Assembly (NCBI GenBank): GCA_026126345.1
Contig: JAHCJH010000003.1
Location: 1 to 55,172 of the forward strand
Direction of reading: 5' to 3'
Source: Phycisphaeraceae bacterium
Lineage (GTDB): Bacteria; Planctomycetota; Phycisphaerae; Phycisphaerales; UBA1924
DNA: 55,172 nt
Shown: positions 10,207-44,181 of the stretch, in pieces
Position numbering within the stretch: the stretch's first letter is position 1
Layout of the letters: every line of letters starts with the position of its first letter
The notes under the pieces: model-generated
What the model was told of the DNA's origin: nothing
What the model saw: only the letters and a program-made list of their open reading frames with translations
The model's database searches: none
Position numbers and translations under genes: made by a program

Positions 10207-11169
10207 ATGGACGCGTGGTTGATCTGGGTGCTGGTGGGGGCGGGCGTGGTGCTGGCGGGGGCCGTGATTTGGCTGGTGCTGCGGTGGCGGGCGGGGCGGA
10301 GTTCCGGGCCGCTGTCGATCGTGCTGCTGCGGCGCACGGTCCCCCGCATCACCCCAGCCGATGTGCGGGGTATCGCGCGGCGTGCGCTGGGCGTCGAAGC
10401 GCAGGTATCGGAGATCCCCATGCCCGACGGGCAGGCGGTGGCGATGCCGATCCTGGGAGAGGGGGCGCCGCCCATCGCGATCATCTCCGCTGCACGCCGG
10501 TACATCGAAGACGACGAGGTCGAGACCGTCGCGCACGGCTGCGAGGACCCGCGCACCCGGTCGGCGGTGCGCGAGCACGTCGGGTGGGTGTCGGTCGACG
10601 CGGTGCTGCTGGACCGCATGCCTCCGCCGTCGGAACGGGCCCCGTACTACGCGCTGCTGGCCCGCGTCGCGCTGGAGTTCCTCGACGACGACGTGCTGAT
10701 GCTCTACCTGCCGGCCGACGGCTACTTCCTCGAGGCGGGCGAATCCGGCCGCGAGCGCCTGCGCTCCGGCCGGCTCATCGACCCGGACAACGACGGCAGC
10801 CTCAACGCGCCGGTCTATACCGTCCAGCCCGACGACGGGAAGGTCAACGCCGCGATCAAGAAGGCCCAGCAGCGCCTGCCCGAGCTTGTCAGCGCCTGGG
10901 AGCGGCGCGGGGCCGAGTGCCAGGCGATGGTCAAGGGGCGCTTCACCGGCAGCAACGGCGAGGTCGAGTACATGTGGCTCGTGCTCAAGGACATTACCGG
11001 CACGCACTTCGTCGGCGAGGTGGGCAACGAGCCGCTGCACCCCGGCGTCCCGGGGCGCGGTTCGACCGCTCGCGTCAAGAGCGACGACGTCGTGGACTGG
11101 GCCTACGCCGATGAACGGGGCGAGCCGCAGGGGCTGTTCGTCGAGAACGTGCTCCGCAATCGCCATTGA
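10207..11169 (+). CDS. Membrane-anchored DUF2314 protein
   Basis: A 320-residue protein of unknown function. One N-terminal membrane helix (about residues 3-25) is followed by a basic stop and a soluble region. The last 105 residues match DUF2314: A-x-CQAMVKGRF, VEYMWL, VGEVGNEP and a V-V-D-W-A-Y strand. DUF2314 is a small alpha/beta domain seen in YegJ-like proteins, with no known activity. GGGAGGTG at 10196-10203 sits just before ATG 10207, which decides this start over an in-frame ATG at 10183. It stands between a terminator and the first zinc-ribbon paralogue, 40 bases downstream. Confidence 0.8.
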   Translation: MDAWLIWVLVGAGVVLAGAVIWLVLRWRAGRSSGPLSIVLLRRTVPRITPADVRGIARRALGVEAQVSEIPMPDGQAVAMPILGEGAPPIAIISAARRYIEDDEVETVAHGCEDPRTRSAVREHVGWVSVDAVLLDRMPPPSERAPYYALLARVALEFLDDDVLMLYLPADGYFLEAGESGRERLRSGRLIDPDNDGSLNAPVYTVQPDDGKVNAAIKKAQQRLPELVSAWERRGAECQAMVKGRFTGSNGEVEYMWLVLKDITGTHFVGEVGNEPLHPGVPGRGSTARVKSDDVVDWAYADERGEPQGLFVENVLRNRH

Positions 11170-33691: not shown

Positions 33692-34447
33692 ATGACCTCG
33701 GTGCCCCGTCCGGCCATCTTGACGCTTCCGGCCCCGACGGCGCTCCAGCGCGCCCTGCCCAACTGGCTCACCGCCAGCCGCGTCGTGCTGGCGGGTGTGT
33801 TTTTCGCCGTGCTCACCCTCTGGCGGTTCGAGGATTCCGCCGCCGCCCGGTCCCAGGTGGACTGGATGCTGCTCGGCGCGGCGGCGTTGTTCGGCATCGC
33901 CGTGGCGACCGATGCGCTGGACGGATACCTGGCCCGACGGTGGAAGGTCGAGTCGATGTTCGGGCGGATCATGGACCCGTTCGCCGACAAGATCCTGGTG
34001 CTGGGGGCACTGGTGTTCCTGGCCGGACCGGACTTCTGGTGGCGGTTTCCCGACGGCCACCCGGCCCGCGTGAGCGGGCACGGTATCCAGATCTCGGGGG
34101 TTTACCCGTGGATGGCGGTGCTGATGGTCGGACGCGAGCTGCTCGTTACGAGCATCCGGGCGGTACTCGAAGGCCAGGGCGTGAAGTTCTCCAGCGACTG
34201 GTGGGGCAAGTGGAAGATGATCCTGCAGTCGGCGGCGATCCCGGCGATTCTGATCATCATCGCGGCCGCGCCCGTTCGGCCCGACGCCGCCGGCGCCTTC
34301 TGGAAGGGCGACCCCGGCAGGGTCGTCGTGGACCTGATCGTCTGGACCACCCTGGCCGTGACGGTGCTGTCGGGCGTGCCGTATGTGGCGCGGTGCCTGC
34401 ACGTGCTGGCCCAGCGCCGGGAGCGGTCAAGCCATGACGCGGGGTGA
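33692..34447 (+). CDS. pgsA: CDP-diacylglycerol-glycerol-3-phosphate phosphatidyltransferase
   Basis: An integral membrane enzyme that makes phosphatidylglycerol phosphate. The CDP-alcohol phosphotransferase signature is complete: D-A-L-D-G-Y-L-A-R then G-R-I-M-D-P-F-A-D-K. ALPNWLTASRVVLAG near the N-terminus is also typical (P-N-x-L-T-x-x-R). With 251 residues it is somewhat longer than usual owing to an extra loop (FWWRFPDGHPARVSG). ATG 33692 is favoured; upstream codons overlap the divergent nuoJ leader. Its last 14 bases overlap the nucleotidyltransferase start. The next enzyme of the pathway, pgpA, lies at 39237, beyond the RiPP-like locus. Confidence 0.9.
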   Translation: MTSVPRPAILTLPAPTALQRALPNWLTASRVVLAGVFFAVLTLWRFEDSAAARSQVDWMLLGAAALFGIAVATDALDGYLARRWKVESMFGRIMDPFADKILVLGALVFLAGPDFWWRFPDGHPARVSGHGIQISGVYPWMAVLMVGRELLVTSIRAVLEGQGVKFSSDWWGKWKMILQSAAIPAILIIIAAAPVRPDAAGAFWKGDPGRVVVDLIVWTTLAVTVLSGVPYVARCLHVLAQRRERSSHDAG

Positions 34448-35441
34448 CGAACGCCTCATCGCCCTGCTGGCCGACCCGGCGGGCCCTCGCCCCGGCGTGC
34501 CGCGCGACCCGCCCGCCGACGAAGACCTGGCGTCCCTTTGGCCGCAGGCCGAGATGCACGGCGTGCTGCCGGCGTTCTTGGCAAACGCCCGCGCGGCCTG
34601 GCCCGGCATGCCCAGCGGCCCGGCGCTGGAGACGGCCCGCCGGCGGCTGGCCGAGCGCGGCGCAATGACCCTGTTCCTGACCGCCGAGAGCCGGCGCGTG
34701 ACGGGCCTGCTCAACCGTGCGGGCGTGCCCGCCATGGTCATCAAGGGCGCCGAGTTCGCCGGCCGCCTGTACGCGTCGCCGGCGCAGCGCACGTTCGGCG
34801 ACATGGATGTCCTCGTGCGCGTCGCCGACGAATCCCGCGCCGTCGAGGTGCTCACCGCCGACGCCTACCGCGAGCGAACCGACGACCTGAAGTACGAGGA
34901 CGGCTACGGCCAGCGTGCCTTCGCCCACCAGAAGGTCCCGGGAACCGAGGTTGAACTGCACACCAACCTCGTAAACTCCCCCACCATCCGTGCCGGCGTT
35001 TCGGCGGCGTTCGACGACATCCCCGCCGAGCCGGCCCCTGGCGGGGCCGTGCGCCCCACGCCGGCGGGCCTGCTGCTCATCGCCTGCATCCACGGCGCCA
35101 CCAGCCACGGCTTCGACAAGCTCCAGCACCTGTGCGACGTGGCGCTGGCCGCCCGGGGCGCCGCGGGGCCGATCGACACCGATGCGCTCCGTACGGCCAT
35201 CGAGCGCACGGGCGCTTCGATGTGCGTCGGCTGGGGCCTCGATCTGGCGGGTCGGACGCTCGGGTGCGGCGCCTGCCACGCGCTGCGCGATTCGCTCCGG
35301 CTCAACTGGCCTCAAACCGTGTCGCGCTGGCTGATGACGCCCGACCTGGTGTCCCGGGCGCAAGGTCCGCGCCGCGCGAGCGGATCATGGCGGCGGCAAG
35401 CGCTGCGTCAGCTCCTGAAGCGTCGCCGAAGCGCGAGCTGA
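34434..35441 (+). CDS. Nucleotidyltransferase family protein of the RiPP-like locus
   Basis: A 335-residue protein of the uncharacterised nucleotidyltransferase family often found beside lasso-peptide and HPr-kinase-like genes (PadeN in the paeninodin cluster belongs to this type). The helical N-terminus leads to VPAMVIKGAEFAGRLY and then R-T-F-G-D123-M-D125-V-L-V, the metal-binding Asp pair, followed by V-E-L-H-T. The reaction here is unknown; transfer of a nucleotide or phosphate to a peptide is inferred from the neighbours. It overlaps pgsA by 14 bases and runs convergently into the B2-like gene, overlapping it by 140 bases. Confidence 0.8.
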   Translation: MTRGDERLIALLADPAGPRPGVPRDPPADEDLASLWPQAEMHGVLPAFLANARAAWPGMPSGPALETARRRLAERGAMTLFLTAESRRVTGLLNRAGVPAMVIKGAEFAGRLYASPAQRTFGDMDVLVRVADESRAVEVLTADAYRERTDDLKYEDGYGQRAFAHQKVPGTEVELHTNLVNSPTIRAGVSAAFDDIPAEPAPGGAVRPTPAGLLLIACIHGATSHGFDKLQHLCDVALAARGAAGPIDTDALRTAIERTGASMCVGWGLDLAGRTLGCGACHALRDSLRLNWPQTVSRWLMTPDLVSRAQGPRRASGSWRRQALRQLLKRRRSAS

Positions 35442-35886
35442 ACCAGTAGATCTCGCGGAGCCGGCCCTGCCCCAGCGACTCGGGCGGGTTCACCGGCCGC
35501 CCATCGAGGCTGACCCAGGCGTGCCCGTGCAGCCGCTCGCCGGGTGATCGCGGCTCGTCAACGCCCAGGTGCAGGCGCAGATCGCCGCCGGCCGGGTCGA
35601 GGAACCGGAATAGCACCAGCGACCGCAGGTAGCACGTGTCTCGGGCTCGCAGCCCCGGAAGCCGCAGCCAGCGCCGGGTCAGCCGGTTCACGCGGGCCAC
35701 ATCAACCGTGCGCCCCGGCTGGAGCGTCAACCGCTGCAGGAACGCCGGCAGCGCCGTGCGTGCCAGCCGCGCCGGGGCTCGCACCACGAAGTGCCCCACG
35801 GCCGCCCACATCGGCAGCCCGGCCCCGGCCAGCAGACGCGGCGGCGGGGCCTTGACCAACGGGCTGGCCGGCGGCCGGACCGTCAC
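35302..35886 (-). CDS. Lasso-peptide B2-like cysteine protease (transglutaminase-core fold)
   Basis: A 194-residue protein matching the lasso B2 leader peptidases. The Cys of the triad is in D-T-C85-Y-L-R-S-L, the His in H-G-H122-A-W-V, the Asp in S-L-D128-G-R. The spacing and the C-x-x-R/S-L and HAWV contexts are as in microcin J25-type B2 proteins, which cut the leader from a precursor. The N-terminal 65 residues are hydrophobic and basic. The start is GTG 35886, coupled to the upstream glycosyltransferase by GTGA. About 45 C-terminal codons lie opposite the nucleotidyltransferase gene, so the true end deserves doubt, but no earlier stop exists. Confidence 0.82.
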   Translation of the reverse strand: MTVRPPASPLVKAPPPRLLAGAGLPMWAAVGHFVVRAPARLARTALPAFLQRLTLQPGRTVDVARVNRLTRRWLRLPGLRARDTCYLRSLVLFRFLDPAGGDLRLHLGVDEPRSPGERLHGHAWVSLDGRPVNPPESLGQGRLREIYWFSSRFGDASGADAALAAAMIRSRGADLAPGTPGRASSASATRFEAS

Positions 35887-36761
35887 GCCCTGCCCCCGTC
35901 CGCGAAGTACGCCTGCACGAAGCCGACGCGCTGAGCCAACTGCTTCACCAGCAGTCCCCGACGCACGAGTCCATCATCGCCCGAACGGGGCGTCGCGGCT
36001 CGCCACGCCTGCGCGAGCGTGCGCCCCCACGCCGCCAACTCCTGCCCGGCCGACCACGGCCACGTCGCCGGGTGGCGCCTGAGGAACTGGCCCTGCCCCC
36101 GCCCGTAGTTCACCTGCTGCCGCCACAGGTCGCGCCAGGTGGCGCGGTGCCGGTGCATCACCACGGCCCGCGGCGCCAGGGCGATCTCGCCGCCGAACCG
36201 GGCGACCAGCCGCTGGTGGAGTTCGCAGGTCTCGTACCACCGCATCGAAGGATCGAACCCGCCCACCGCCAGCAGGTCCTCGCGCCGGTACGCCAGGTTG
36301 CACGAAGGGGCCCACGGCGCCACGCCGTGCCGCACGTACTTCTCGGCGTCGAGCGCCCCGATCAGGTCCATGAACCGCGCCGCGGGCGTGACCGAATCAA
36401 GCCCCACCGTGCGACCGGCCACCGCCAGCGTGCCGCGCCCAGCCCCTTCGGCGTTCGCCAGCAGCTCCGCCAGCCACCGGCGCGACGGCACGCAGTCGGC
36501 ATCGGTGAACGCGATCCAGGCTCCCCGGGCCGCGCGGGTCCCCGCGTTGCGCGCCGCCCCGCAGCCGCGGTTCACCGCCACGCGCAGGACCGTCGCCCCC
36601 GCCGCACGCGCCGCCTCGTCGGTGCCGTCGGTGGAACCGTCGGACACCACGATGCACTCGCGCTGATCCGCCGGAACACCCGCCTGCCGCACCACCGCGC
36701 CGACCGCCTCGGCCACCGTGCCGACCGCGTTGTACGCCGGGATGATGACCGACACGCGCAT
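35883..36761 (-). CDS. Family 2 glycosyltransferase A
   Basis: A 292-residue GT-A fold enzyme that transfers a sugar from a nucleotide donor. V-S-V-I-I-P-A-Y-N begins the nucleotide-binding half, V-V-S-D-G-S-T-D-G-T-D the loop, and F-T-D-A-D-C-V-P the metal-binding Asp motif. GGFDPSMRWYETCELHQRL is the acceptor-side region where the family carries an E-D pair; here it reads Y-E-T-C-E-L. A basic amphipathic C-terminus (HRATWRDLWRQQVNYGRGQG) may touch the membrane. ATG 36761 shares its A with the upstream stop. Sugar and acceptor are unknown; in this operon a peptide or lipid acceptor are both possible. Confidence 0.85.
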   Translation of the reverse strand: MRVSVIIPAYNAVGTVAEAVGAVVRQAGVPADQRECIVVSDGSTDGTDEAARAAGATVLRVAVNRGCGAARNAGTRAARGAWIAFTDADCVPSRRWLAELLANAEGAGRGTLAVAGRTVGLDSVTPAARFMDLIGALDAEKYVRHGVAPWAPSCNLAYRREDLLAVGGFDPSMRWYETCELHQRLVARFGGEIALAPRAVVMHRHRATWRDLWRQQVNYGRGQGQFLRRHPATWPWSAGQELAAWGRTLAQAWRAATPRSGDDGLVRRGLLVKQLAQRVGFVQAYFADGGRA

Positions 36762-37666
36762 CACCCGCCCCCGGGCCCTTCGCCCGATGCAAGCCTCATG
36801 AAGAACGCGCCCCAGAAATGCACGTTCCAGCCCCGGTAGTACCGCTCGAACTCCGCACGCTCGGCAGACACCAGGCCCAGCGCCCGCCCCGCCGTCGCCA
36901 GCGGAGCCGCGGCGTAGAGACACCCGATCCCGCCGCTCACCCACAGCGTGTGCCACAACCGCCACCGCACCACGTCGGGGTGCTTCAGGTGCAGCTGCGC
37001 AAGGCCCGTGCCGTACCAGCGGGCCTGCCGCCAGAGCGCGGCGTCGTCGGACCGGTGCTTGTGAAACAGGCTCGCGCCCTGCGCCCAGACGATTCCAACG
37101 CCGCGCCGCCGCAGCCGGATGCACAGGTCGATGTCCTCTCCGCTGCCCATCCACGGGTCCCACCCGCCGGCGTCCCGAAGATCATCGACCCGAACGGCGA
37201 GGTTCATCCCGGTGGCGTAGGGGTGCACGGGGTGGTCAACGCTCACCGCACGGGCGTACTGGCCGTTCGCCTCGGCGAACCGCTCGGCCGGCGAGGCCGC
37301 GGGCCAGCCGAGGATCGGGCCCGTCGCGACGGCGCGCCCCGCCCGCTCGATCTCCTGCACCAGCGCGCCCAGCCACCGGCGGCTGGGCACCGTGTCGCTG
37401 TCGGTGTGGGCGATGATGCGTCCACGGGCCACGGCGAGCCCCGCGTTGCGCGCCGCCGACGGCCCGCGCACAGGCGCGTGCACCACCCGCGCCCCGCCCG
37501 CACGGGCAATCTCCGCCGTCCGATCGGTCGAGCCGTTGTCGGCGACGACGATCTCAAACCCCCCCGGCACCCCCACCTGGGCGCGCAGCGCCGCCAGCGT
37601 GTCGCCGATCGTCCGCTCGGCATTGAGCGCCGGGATCACCACGCTGACCAGCGGCGCACCCGTCAC
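36761..37666 (-). CDS. Family 2 glycosyltransferase B
   Basis: A 301-residue paralogue of the next gene with the same fold: L-V-S-V-V-I-P-A-L-N, V-A-D-N-G-S-T-D-R-T and H-T-D-S-D-T-V-P-S-R-R-W. The acceptor motif G-S-G-E-D-I-D-L-C-I-R-L is intact, unlike in glycosyltransferase A. One hydrophobic stretch near the C-terminus (WVSGGIGCLYAAAPLATAG) could anchor it to the membrane. GTG 37666 overlaps the stop of the HPr-kinase-like gene in GTGA. That two related enzymes follow each other suggests two successive sugar transfers. Confidence 0.86.
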   Translation of the reverse strand: MTGAPLVSVVIPALNAERTIGDTLAALRAQVGVPGGFEIVVADNGSTDRTAEIARAGGARVVHAPVRGPSAARNAGLAVARGRIIAHTDSDTVPSRRWLGALVQEIERAGRAVATGPILGWPAASPAERFAEANGQYARAVSVDHPVHPYATGMNLAVRVDDLRDAGGWDPWMGSGEDIDLCIRLRRRGVGIVWAQGASLFHKHRSDDAALWRQARWYGTGLAQLHLKHPDVVRWRLWHTLWVSGGIGCLYAAAPLATAGRALGLVSAERAEFERYYRGWNVHFWGAFFMRLASGEGPGGG

Positions 37667-38736
37667 GCTCGATCCTCCGAAAGTTCGGCCATCAGCGCAT
37701 CGCTGAATCGATCGACCCCCGCGCTGTCGCCGAACGCGTCCGGGCCAACCGAAAGGTCCAGGCCCCGCGCCGCGGCGCCCATGGCGCCGATCGTCGCGAC
37801 CAGCGGTCTGGCCGCCGCTGCCTCTCCGGGGATCGCGACCTGCCGACCCAGCACGTCGATGCGCTGCGCCAATTCCAGCGGCGCCCAGCGCAGGCCGGCG
37901 CCCTCGGCCTCACGCCGCACGCGGACCACGAGGCAGACCACGGCGCTGGTCACGAGGCGGCCGGGCCACACTCCCTCGAGATCGACGTGCCGCTTGTCCG
38001 TCCAGGGCGAGTACGTCGGAAACCTGCGGATGTCCCCGGCTTCCGCCAGCCAGCGCGACGCCGCGGGATCCAGGTGCATCCGCCTGGCCACGGCGCGCGC
38101 CTCCACGCCGCCGGGCGCTCGCCGGGCCAGCAGTTTGTCGTCGCCCAGCGTGCGCCAGCCGCGCCGCAACAGGCTGAACGTCAGCGTGGTCTTGCCCGAG
38201 CCGGACGGGGCACACAGCACCGCGCACCGATCCAGCCGCGGGTGAACGACGGTCGCGCCGTGCACCGGCGTCCAGCCCGCCAGGGCCCAGGCCCGAGCCG
38301 AGAGCAGGGTCAATTGCTGCTCGGCCTCCTCGATCACGTCGGGCCGATCCCGCCAGGGCGGCACCGCCAGCGACGCGGCCTGCGCCGGCTCGTCGATCCG
38401 CAGCATCGTGCCGCGCCGACCGCGGCTCTCGACGATCCCCGGCGCGGCGCGCCGGACGTCCAGGTGCACCGTCGTCAAGAACCCGCCGGTCGGCGCGACG
38501 ACCTCGCCGCGCTCGCGCTTGACGCAGCCAACGTCGAGCGTCCAGCACCTCGGTTCGCCGGGCCCGGCCCGCCACGGCGCGTCGTACTGGTTGCTGTGCC
38601 GCGCCAGTGCGCGGGCCAGCGCCGGGTCGCTCCAGTGCGCCCGCAGCGCCGCCGGACCCCACGCGTGGACGGTGCGATCCGCCGCCCCCAACGCCGCCCC
38701 CGTGATCGCAGGTGCCTCGAACGCGGACATGGTCAT
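37663..38736 (-). CDS. HPr kinase-like protein of the RiPP-like locus
   Basis: A 357-residue protein whose C-terminal half resembles the HPr kinase/phosphorylase P-loop domain: V-H-G-A-T-V-V, then the Walker A A-P-S-G-S-G-K-T-T at residues 176-184, then L-G-D-D-K at 197-201. Homologues in lasso-peptide clusters (PadeK type) phosphorylate a Ser of the precursor, so a peptide-kinase role is the best guess. The 150-residue N-terminal half (TLDVGCVKRERG, PGIVESRGRRGTMLRID) is typical of these cluster kinases and not of true HprK. ATG 38736 overlaps the PqqD-like stop in ATGA. There is no HPr gene nearby. Confidence 0.8.
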   Translation of the reverse strand: MTMSAFEAPAITGAALGAADRTVHAWGPAALRAHWSDPALARALARHSNQYDAPWRAGPGEPRCWTLDVGCVKRERGEVVAPTGGFLTTVHLDVRRAAPGIVESRGRRGTMLRIDEPAQAASLAVPPWRDRPDVIEEAEQQLTLLSARAWALAGWTPVHGATVVHPRLDRCAVLCAPSGSGKTTLTFSLLRRGWRTLGDDKLLARRAPGGVEARAVARRMHLDPAASRWLAEAGDIRRFPTYSPWTDKRHVDLEGVWPGRLVTSAVVCLVVRVRREAEGAGLRWAPLELAQRIDVLGRQVAIPGEAAAARPLVATIGAMGAAARGLDLSVGPDAFGDSAGVDRFSDALMAELSEDRA

Positions 38737-39149
38737 TCAGCCATCGGGATGCCGGGATCGAACGCGCTGACCATGATCCGCTGCAGCGGCTCCTGGTGCC
38801 GGGTCAGCGACGGGGCCGACCACGCGGCGCCCTCCAGAATCGCCGCGGGCTCGCCCGCCGGCTGCCCCGGCCCTTCGAGCGGCTCCACCAGATCGTCGGC
38901 GACGAGGTGCCGGATCACCGCGTCGATCGCATCCGAATCCGCCTCACGCGCGCCCAGCGCGGCGCACGCACGGCGCGCTTCATACGCCGTGGCGCCGGCT
39001 TCAAACTGCTGGACCACCGCCCAGGCCGACGCGTTGGCCGAGTAGAAGTACTTGCTGCGCAGGTCGAGCAGCACCGCGCCGTCGTGCAGCACCGTCGAGA
39101 CCACGTCGGGCCGGAGAATCAGCCTGCCGGCGGGCAAATCGGTGGACAT
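38733..39149 (-). CDS. PqqD-like peptide-binding protein with precursor-like tail
   Basis: Residues 8-92 are a PqqD-type winged-helix domain (RiPP recognition element, as in lasso B1 proteins), which binds leader peptides: L-R-P-D-V-V-S-T-V, LLDLRSKYFYSANASAWAVV, DAVIRHLVADDLVEPLEG. A linker follows, then a tail of about 30 residues that starts A-A-W110-S-A-P113-S-L115 and ends F-D-P-G-I-P-M-A-E. W/Y-x-x-P-x-L is the pattern by which lasso leaders are recognised by B1 proteins, so the tail may be a ligand or the modified peptide itself. AGAGGG lies 8 bases before ATG 39149. It is the first gene of the coupled minus-strand operon. Confidence 0.8.
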   Translation of the reverse strand: MSTDLPAGRLILRPDVVSTVLHDGAVLLDLRSKYFYSANASAWAVVQQFEAGATAYEARRACAALGAREADSDAIDAVIRHLVADDLVEPLEGPGQPAGEPAAILEGAAWSAPSLTRHQEPLQRIMVSAFDPGIPMAE

Positions 39150-41834: not shown

Positions 41835-43375
41835 TCAGTGCCCCGAATCCGCTGCCCCTCTCGGGGCGTGCTCCCGGAGCAGACGCACCCCAAGGCGATG
41901 GCCAAGGGCCAGGATCGTGAGCGTGGGGTTGGACGTGCCCACGCGCGGGAACACCGCGGCGCTCAACGCGTGCACGTTGGGCACGCCCGCCAGGCGCAGG
42001 TCCGCGTCCACAGGGCTGTCCGGAGATGTTCCCATGCGCAGGCCGCCGGAACTGTGCAGCGTGTCGACCGAGTGCTTGCGCAGGTGGTCCAGGAATCCAC
42101 GGGGGTCCTTCGCGGGGTCAGGGATCAACACCTCCGCCTCGAAGTCCGCCTCGGCCTTGAGCCGTTCGAGCACCTCGTGGCAGATCGGAATCAGCGCGGC
42201 CGAGAGCTCCGCGTCGAGGTCCGACACGTCCCACGACACGGCGCACCCCTGGCCCTCGGCCCGGATCGTCCACTTCGACAGGGGGTACTGCTCGATGTCG
42301 AGCGTCGCCAGAATGCGCGTGCCGCGGTCGATGAACAGCCGGCGCCTCACGTACCGGCAGAAGCCCAGTCGCGGCAGCCCGATCAACAGCGCGCCCAATT
42401 CCCGGAACGAAGGCAGGCGCGCCCCCCGAAGCGTGCGCTGCTGAACTGCGTTCAGCACGTCGCGGACCGGCCGCAGGATCGACGACGTGGACGTATCGAA
42501 CGCAAGGTGCAAGAACGCTCCCGGCCACTGCTTGCCGCGCAGCTCGATGTCGAAATGCTCGCCGAACATCAGCCCGTGCTCGAAGCGGTAGCCGAACCGC
42601 CGCGAGAACCGCCCCTGCGACTTCGGCCTGAGCAGCGCCACGGGAAACGACACGTGATCGTGAAAGTACTCGCCGCGCCCGGGTGCGCCGGCGGATCCGC
42701 ACGCCGCGAACACGCGCTCGGCCAGCAGGTTCGTGTTGACGATGCCCGCCGCGATGACGAAGTTCCGCGCCGCGATGCGCGCCCCGCCGGCGTCCGCAGT
42801 GTCGATCTCGACGGCCTCGATCCCCCCCGCGCCGGCGGGAACGAACGCGCGGATCGCCGCGTTGCACGTCCCGTTCGCCCTGCCGGCGATCGTCGGGCCA
42901 GACTCCTCCGCGAGTTCTTGCTGCGGAACGGCAGGATCGTGGGCCGCCGTCGCACGTGCAGACCCGGCCGGTCGATGAACACCGACTCGGCACAGTGGCG
43001 GCTCGCGTCGATCCCGAACAGCGCCTCCACCGCGGCGTAGTGCGGCTCCAGCTCCGCGTACCCGACCGGCCAGCGCGTGTCCGGCCGACCCTCGATGGCC
43101 TCGAAGTCCGGCGGGCTCAGCCGGATCAGCCCGCCGCCCCACGTGTTCGTCGCGCCGCCGAAGGCCGTCACGCGCCCCTCGTTCACGCCCACGTGCTCCT
43201 TGAGCACGCTCCGGACCCGGAACGGCTCCTTCCGATCGCGGAAGTGCGCCGGCCCGGCCTCGATCAGGCAGATGCGCATCGACGGCTCGCGTGAGAGCTG
43301 CTCGGCGAGCACCAGCCCGGCGGCCCCGGCCCCGATGATGCACACGTCGTACCGCTCGCTGGCGCCGGCGCTCAT
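41835..43375 (-). pseudogene. GMC-family FAD oxidoreductase with one frame slip
   Basis: An FAD-dependent oxidoreductase of the glucose-methanol-choline type. The N-terminal FAD-binding loop V-C-I-I-G-A-G-A-A-G-L and A-F-G-G-A-T-N-T-W-G-G-G are in the frame starting at ATG 43375. Near 42915 it leaves this frame after P-F-R-S-K-N and continues one frame off at L-A-E-E-S-G-P-T-I-A-G-R. The C-terminal half has the closing GMC motif: SSGGLRMGT, HALSAAVFPRVGTSNPTLTI. Adding one base near 42915 gives a normal 510-520 residue enzyme. The start overlaps the aldo/keto reductase stop in ATGA, so they form a pair. Substrate unknown, possibly a sugar or polyol. Confidence 0.8.
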
Positions 43376-44181
43376 GTTCCCGCTCCAACTCGGCCGCATT
43401 CCCGCACGCAGCGCCCCATGCGGGCGATCTCCTCCGGCTGGTTGGACGCGAGAATCGCCGTCGCGCCCGGCAGCGCGCCGGCGAACGCCTCGATCAGCCG
43501 GCGCGTCTCAATCCGGCCGGGCCCCATCGACCGCGACAGATGCTTCACCAGGTTGTACACGAAGACCTTCCGCCCCCGGAACCACGCCGCCGGAAGCCGG
43601 CACACCTCGTCCGTCATCGAGAGCATCCGCACCGAGTCCGCCGGAACGTGCCCGAGCCGCTCGGCCTCGAGCATCGTCTCCGATACACCCGATACGCCGA
43701 ACGCGCCGATCGAGCCCGCGTCCTTCAACCGGCGCAGCTCGTCCCACGTCGGGCCCAGCGCCTCGTACGCCCCGACCGTCGGCGGCTCGTGGATCAGCAG
43801 GTAGTCCACGCGCTCAATCCCCAGCCTTCGGAGCGAGCCCTCCAGGCTGCGGCGCAGCACCGCCGGCGCGTAGTCGCGCCGGTCGTACCGCGCGCCCAAC
43901 GGCAGCCGCGTGACCCGCTCCACCGTGCGGCAGGCCAGGTACACCGGCGTCGGCAGCCGCCCGATCGCCCGGTACGGAATGCCGAACTTCGTCGTGATTG
44001 TCACGCCCCCCGAACGCCCGCGCAGCGCTCGGCCGAGTTCGATCTCCGCCAGGCCGTCGCCGTACACCGGCGCAACGTCGAAGTGCGTGAACCCCGCGTC
44101 GAGCGCGCTCCGGATGATCCGCGCTCGATCGGAACGCCGGAACACGTGGTGCAGCCTGCCGAGCCCGAATCCCGCGTCCAT
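43372..44181 (-). CDS. Aldo/keto reductase family protein
   Basis: A 269-residue TIM-barrel NADPH-dependent reductase. F-D-V-A-P-V-Y-G-D-G provides the catalytic Asp and Tyr, I-T-T-K-F-G the Lys and Y-L-L-I-H-E-P the His, so the tetrad is complete. VGAYEALGPTWDELRRLKDA and G-A-F-G-V-S-G follow as usual. The substrate is unknown. ATG 44181 is the first sensible start, as the frame upstream to 44433 reads through intergenic DNA. It is the first gene of a two-gene operon with the GMC oxidoreductase, a pairing seen in sugar or natural-product oxidation loci. Confidence 0.87.
   Translation of the reverse strand: MDAGFGLGRLHHVFRRSDRARIIRSALDAGFTHFDVAPVYGDGLAEIELGRALRGRSGGVTITTKFGIPYRAIGRLPTPVYLACRTVERVTRLPLGARYDRRDYAPAVLRRSLEGSLRRLGIERVDYLLIHEPPTVGAYEALGPTWDELRRLKDAGSIGAFGVSGVSETMLEAERLGHVPADSVRMLSMTDEVCRLPAAWFRGRKVFVYNLVKHLSRSMGPGRIETRRLIEAFAGALPGATAILASNQPEEIARMGRCVRECGRVGAGT

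Follow-up and report, generated by a model that had tools for sequence, protein, structure and literature searches.

A probable LPP-like, non-lasso RiPP-like operon with a precursor-like tail on its PqqD-like protein in a Phycisphaeraceae bacterium

The window analysed here is a single 55-kb contig (JAHCJH010000003.1, 55,172 nucleotides) of the draft genome of a planctomycete, Phycisphaeraceae bacterium (3.0 Mb, 86.5% complete). It carries an operon that encodes a PqqD-like protein with a RiPP recognition element (RRE; RiPP, ribosomally synthesized and post-translationally modified peptide), an HprK-like kinase, two family-2 glycosyltransferases (GT2a and GT2b) and a B2-type protease, on which the gene of an NTP_transf_5 protein (NTP, a nucleotidyltransferase) converges. 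The operon probably specifies a non-lasso, RiPP-like pathway resembling that of the linear polyphosphorylated peptides (LPPs; Popov et al. 2026, PMC13381572). In the window's pathway the RRE would carry the precursor at its C-terminal end, glycosyltransferases would take part and B2 would act as the leader peptidase. Judged from its sequence, the apparently missing precursor seems to be the C-terminal tail of the PqqD-like protein. The genes are as follows.

38733-39149, minus strand: PqqD-like RRE protein, 138 aa, with a C-terminal precursor-like tail (lasso_PqqD_Strm, E=1.4e-7; AlphaFold2/Foldseek fold)
37663-38736, minus strand: HprK-like kinase, 357 aa, P-loop APSGSGKTT (HprK_rel_A, partial match, 6.5e-7)
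36761-37666, minus strand: family-2 glycosyltransferase GT2a, 301 aa, DSD motif (PF00535, 98 bits)
35883-36761, minus strand: family-2 glycosyltransferase GT2b, 292 aa, DAD motif (PF00535, 99 bits)
35302-35886, minus strand: B2-type putative leader peptidase, Transglut_core3, 194 aa (NF033537 and Transglut_core3, both above cut-off)
34434-35441, plus strand: NTP_transf_5 protein, 335 aa, converging on the operon (PF14907, 113 bits)

From the PqqD-like to the B2-like gene, the minus-strand genes overlap by 4, 4, 1 and 4 bp, and the 3' ends of the NTP_transf_5 and B2 genes overlap by 140 bp. The gene calls confirm the five overlapping minus-strand genes and the converging nucleotidyltransferase of a preliminary description of this DNA.

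The PqqD-like protein consists of the RRE, a variable linker and then WSAPSLTRHQEPLQRIMVSAFDPGIPMAE. The tail has two parts.

38775-38822, minus strand: leader-like part, W110-I125 (WSAPSLTRHQEPLQRI), marked by the LPP motif, a position weight matrix (PWM) of such tails and a predicted strand
38736-38774, minus strand: core-like part, M126-E138 (MVSAFDPGIPMAE), with Ser128 as candidate phosphosite from its ungapped motif position

The LPP leader motif is YxxPxVLxHQxIxFETxxS, with cleavage after T(-1) (PMC13381572). Residues 110-128 (WSAPSLTRHQEPLQRIMVS) fit it without gaps at six of 11 positions (W1, P4, L6, H9, Q10 and S19), where W was allowed for Y and L/I for V after the published [Y/W]xxPx[L/V/I/F/A]. 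Of 200,000 shuffled tails 158 fit equally well, and among all 88,725 19-mers read in six frames from the window, W110-S128 alone has such a fit. Ser128 falls on motif position 19 and coincides with Ser3 of LppA, which is phosphorylated by LppK in a system with no cyclase (PMC13381572). By lasso-leader counting, Ile125 lies at -2, as does the leader Ile of the Bsf system, in which BsfK phosphorylates Ser3 (PMC10368454). The leader part also fits a PWM built from the 66 tail-bearing PqqDs listed (see below), with 17 of 20,000 shuffles as good. A phmmer search with the window PqqD against the collected loci gave seven significant matches, every one a tail-bearing PqqD. The core, taken as VSAFDPGIPMAE or MVSAFDPGIPMAE, has no Asp/Glu at position 7-9, so no lasso ring is expected. 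A scan of small open reading frames (ORFs) near the operon for lasso-type leader motifs turned up no free-standing precursor; its sole hit is the 3'-terminal part of the PqqD-like gene. The preliminary description had reported no free precursor, which holds for a separate ORF near the operon, but the precursor seems to be fused to PqqD and not simply absent.

An AlphaFold2 model of the PqqD-like protein, built with 62 relatives, is confident for the RRE, with a mean pLDDT (predicted local distance difference test) of 88. Tail residues 111-120 have a pLDDT of about 94 with a strand at 115-118, followed by a low-confidence helix and a loose end, and the model docks the tail, as a strand, onto the RRE of the same chain. 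The predicted arrangement is the same in a canonical tail-bearing relative modelled likewise with AlphaFold2. The top Foldseek matches are TbiB1 and another lasso B1, both crystallised with leader peptides (E 1.5e-3 and higher, probability 1.00), and the modelling supports a PqqD/RRE fold.

Two of the companion proteins pass their family profiles. The B2-like protein scores 34.4 bits against NCBIfam lasso_biosyn_B2 NF033537 (cut-off 33) and 41.4 bits against Transglut_core3 (cut-off 26), and the NTP_transf_5 protein scores 113 bits against PF14907 (cut-off 31.2). Both GT2s are clear matches to their family. The HprK-like and PqqD-like proteins are recognisable, yet they remain under every family cut-off (HprK_rel_A, 28.7 bits versus 200; lasso_PqqD_Strm, 31.6 versus 70; Pfam PqqD, 13.8 versus 23.4). 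In residue alignments the catalytic H, K, D and D of the HprK-like protein align with those of lasso tailoring-type kinases, which supports its assignment as a kinase, and the Cys and His of the B2-like protein with those of B2s from lasso loci. Sequence searches of B2 and HprK against solved structures gave nothing useful. The B2 profile match and the predicted RRE fold tie both proteins to RiPP families, a connection that the preliminary description had left to a profile check.

From the gene set and its order, the catalytic residues, the motif match, the predicted docking of the tail and the recurrence of the gene order, we infer a series of steps; the role of the tail as substrate, the identity of the acceptor, the sugar chemistry, cleavage and the product's function are all putative. 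The RRE would bind its own tail in cis through W110xxPxL. The segment past I125 would thereby be offered to the HprK-like kinase, and Ser128 would be phosphorylated. The NTP_transf_5 protein and the two GT2s may decorate the phosphate, or a site close to it, with sugars or nucleotidyl sugars, and B2 would cut near I125/M126, releasing a phospho-glycopeptide of 12-13 residues. The preliminary description had already suggested a non-lasso peptide that undergoes recognition, phosphorylation or nucleotidylation, glycosylation and perhaps cleavage. This is the best-supported reading, with its chemistry presumed, and cyclase-less relatives are now known in the LPPs.

LPPs have an RRE, an HprK-like kinase, an NTP transferase and a leader peptidase with no cyclase, and they also occur in capsule loci (PMC13381572). 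Like them, the window has an RRE, an HprK-like kinase and an NTP transferase with no macrolactam cyclase (in a draft genome), and its tail has the [Y/W]xxP leader, the HQ and the Ser at the LPP spacing, six of the 11 motif positions in all. LPPs have separate precursors of 35-200 aa, an SpI-like signal peptidase and an MsbA-like exporter and are reported from Bacillota, whereas the window operon has a precursor-like tail fused to the RRE, a B2-type protease and two GT2s and belongs to a planctomycete. Its RRE carries the tail and is not strictly discrete, unlike the discrete RRE of LPPs. An SpI-like leader peptidase and an MsbA-like exporter are not among the operon and neighbouring genes on inspection, with no whole-genome profile search made. 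Searches near the operon gave no separate precursor, SpI peptidase or exporter, and the system is therefore called LPP-like and is not filed as an LPP.

The paeninodin, Bsf and pseudomycoidin clusters share with the window an RRE (B1), B2, a kinase with H-K-D-D and an NTP_transf_5-type protein. The window differs in that its cluster lacks a cyclase and a free precursor, the core-like tail offers no residue for ring closure and two GT2s are added. In pseudomycoidin the annotated nucleotidyltransferase PsmN adds hexoses to phosphoserine (PMC9266682). The combination of kinase, nucleotidyltransferase, B1 and B2 had been regarded as the hallmark of paeninodin-type clusters; the set is indeed present, but RRE, HprK and NTP without a cyclase form a broader theme.

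Three other systems have partial likeness to the window. HPr-rel-A (TIGR04352/TIGR04353) has the same triad of PqqD, HprK-like and NTP_transf_5 proteins, which is found in several genomes of the window's order (for example at locus L070), but the HPr-rel-A PqqDs examined have no tail and the system lacks GT2 and B2. Membership was rejected, since the window kinase falls short of the HprK_rel_A cut-off as given above and there is no PqqD_rel_X (TIGR04353) match, whereas L070, as positive control, scores 361 and 67.7 bits for TIGR04352 and TIGR04353. SynChlorMet (ScmC/ScmD with the radical SAM proteins ScmE/F) also combines PqqD and an HprK-like protein in a RiPP-like cassette; the window operon has no radical SAM, and the anammox-type planctomycete loci (such as L098) are closer to SynChlorMet. 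The mycofactocin glycosyltransferase MftF (TIGR03965) is the best NCBIfam match of both GT2a and GT2b, at 143.5 and 150.3 bits. Membership was rejected, as the cut-off of 280 is not reached. The operon also has no MftC-type radical SAM.

Tail-bearing PqqDs recur widely. A pattern scan of genome contigs, with a Crinalium plasmid added, gave at least 66 loci from at least 14 named phyla, whose PqqD tails are more conserved than that of the window and contain DPIH[DE]V..GWP. The commonest order among those listed is PqqD-HprK-GT2-GT2-NTP. Counted in 8-kb loci, some of them incomplete, HprK is the next gene in 42 of 66, a same-strand GT2 is present in 53 and NTP in 38, while B2 and Asn synthase occur in one each. 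Within the window's family, L080 and L087 from two genomes show this order of PqqD, HprK, GT2, GT2 and NTP, all on a single strand, with PqqD tails that end in DPIHEV.EAGWP. The window matches the PqqD-HprK-GT2-GT2 order with an inverted NTP nearby. This neighbourhood survey bears out a conserved order for PqqD-HprK-GT2-GT2(-NTP), but B2 lies outside it, and the combination of fused tail and B2 is seen only in the window among the loci listed. Column entropy in these loci is 2.5 bits for the RRE, 3.5 for the linker, 2.0 for the leader-like part and 0.78 for the DPIH..GWP block, the last value stemming partly from the pattern used to find the loci; on these values, selection on the tail is strong. 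In genome G115, an ORF that fuses GT2 and HprK links sugar transfer to the kinase. The tail is covered by no NCBIfam or Pfam model, a literature text search found no paper on the DPIH tail, and the fused-tail layout is described neither in the profile libraries nor in the papers searched. It is conceivable, though short of an even chance, that RRE, leader and core in one chain, modified in cis with phosphate and sugar, constitute a widespread and undescribed architecture, of which the window would be a variant that gained a B2 to release the product.

Several individual tail loci have further features. The PqqD on the Crinalium plasmid (L113, 5896-15342) has the same tail as L080/L087 beside NTP and HPr kinase genes, along with an FkbM methyltransferase, glycosyltransferases and a second NTP gene. 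In L073 (8589-10502), one 637-aa frame matches GT2 in its N-terminal part as well as HprK and is followed by a tail-bearing PqqD. In a Bacillota bin (L147, 1497-6779), a tail-bearing PqqD cassette adjoins a second set of PqqD, B2, HprK and NTP, in which the B2 belongs with its own PqqD and not with the neighbouring cassette. These side-by-side sets resemble the LPP/lasso pairs of Popov et al.

A number of points weigh against an LPP-like pathway with a fused precursor. The motif substitutions (W for Y, L/I for V) were chosen after the tail was known. The window tail lacks the DPIH[DE]V..GWP block, MAFFT aligns only DP and GxP, and the match to the full tail profile is weak (2.9 bits, with 16 of 2,000 shuffles as high), so that the tail is a divergent case of the wider family. 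The window kinase and PqqD are long branches with no firm placement in trees. A grouping of the kinase with the tail/lasso side is not rejected (approximately unbiased test, p=0.40), and the kinase has no close relatives among 121 relatives and 397 class members, only distant ones. B2 is almost absent from the listed fused-tail loci, and B2 cleavage of a fused tail is therefore without precedent. NTP lies on the opposite strand, no exporter was recognised near the operon (gene calls inspected by eye, with no dedicated profile search), as the preliminary description had also found, and the genome is in a draft state.

The main rival explanation, a less likely one, makes the tail a docking or autoinhibitory segment, which fills the RRE groove until a precursor or partner encoded elsewhere displaces it, while the enzymes modify another target such as an envelope glycan or protein. 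The tail core of the listed relatives, at the entropy given above, is far more conserved than usual RiPP cores, a leader peptidase is rare in their loci, and the neighbouring genes include group-1 glycosyltransferases and sugar-modifying enzymes. The window core, however, has diverged and places a Ser precisely on the LPP phosphosite, and the operon does include a leader peptidase gene; moreover, cofactor-type RiPPs (PQQ, mycofactocin) likewise have conserved cores. It is improbable that the kinase, NTP and GT2s form a repurposed polysaccharide or envelope module making a phosphoglycan with PqqD and B2 as helpers. Polysaccharide regions are a frequent setting of related loci (L069, L110, L111), and LPPs occur in capsule loci, but the window neighbours are mostly housekeeping genes, and both the RRE and the leader-like tail suggest that the substrate is a peptide. 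The results speak neither for nor against an envelope role of the window system.

Also improbable is a paeninodin-type lasso cluster without its cyclase, whether through loss or because cyclase and precursor are encoded in the 13% that the draft genome lacks. The RRE, B2, kinase and NTP-type proteins are those of paeninodin/Bsf clusters, and a complete lasso locus exists in the window's order (genome G084, locus L069). Yet the operon is internal to a 55-kb contig in which no Asn-synthase-type cyclase is seen, consistent with the earlier report of a missing cyclase, the core lacks a ring acceptor and cyclase-less B2 sets recur in Planctomycetota. Each of the genome's two full-length Asn_synthase matches starts with MCG(V/I)AGI and sits outside this contig, one with housekeeping genes around it and the other within a polysaccharide locus. 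A lasso cluster with a remote cyclase was rejected, as these matches are AsnB-like and have no lasso-type neighbours.

If the LPP-like pathway with a fused precursor is correct, it explains how a cluster with an RRE, a kinase and a protease can do without a precursor gene, and it predicts that genome-mining tools, in seeking a short ORF of its own for the precursor, overlook a large group that spans many phyla. In a 2025 survey, 21% of PF05402-matching proteins were longer than a discrete RRE and had no other annotation, and conserved tails of this kind could account for part of them. The window-type system also offers a direct test of the function of the NTP_transf_5 protein and its companion GT2s.

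B2 matches occur in 31 of 392 genomes of the phylum. True lasso loci with a cyclase are L069, L096, L109 and L112. B2 sets without a cyclase include L098, L102 and L106, with HprK, radical SAM, PqqD, B2 and NTP and no cyclase within the fetched region (the label anammox-type for these three is a guess), L110 and L111, with PqqD, B2, HprK and NTP and no cyclase in polysaccharide export loci, while L240 has PqqD, B2, HprK and NTP. The RRE-kinase-NTP(-B2) toolkit thus joins varied partners: lasso loci pair it with a cyclase, anammox-type loci with a radical SAM and the window type with GT2s. L069 (7549-12962), in a polysaccharide locus, has the full paeninodin-like set of B2, PqqD, cyclase, HprK and NTP with a precursor at 10631-10798. 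L098 (5902-6093, 6111-10826), L106 (4478-9713) and L102 have low GC, and a free precursor in L098 and L106 has a repeated FxEPKLT motif and ends in FVP/FTP. L110 (8443-9211) and L111 (7989-8524) each encode two tandem lasso-like precursors, both ending in Ser.

B2 has a single match in the window's genome. A second pair of HprK-like and NTP_transf_5 proteins, without PqqD, is encoded elsewhere in it (G000:C68, L079 3392-10022), accompanied by a phosphotransferase-like protein, a Rieske oxygenase and a glycosyltransferase. The sole PqqD match above the Pfam cut-off in this genome (G000:C243:38343-38537, L088 8233-10398) lies inside a 721-aa protein that also resembles a membrane-fusion/exporter component. 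The surroundings of the operon are mostly housekeeping genes (NADH dehydrogenase, pgsA, pgpA, comM), among them a CDP-alcohol phosphatidyltransferase (pgsA-like) gene that lies upstream of the NTP_transf_5 gene and overlaps it by 14 bp. A GMC-type oxidoreductase at 41835-43399 is split over two frames with a breakpoint at about 42.6-42.9 kb, and is either an assembly frameshift or a decayed gene.

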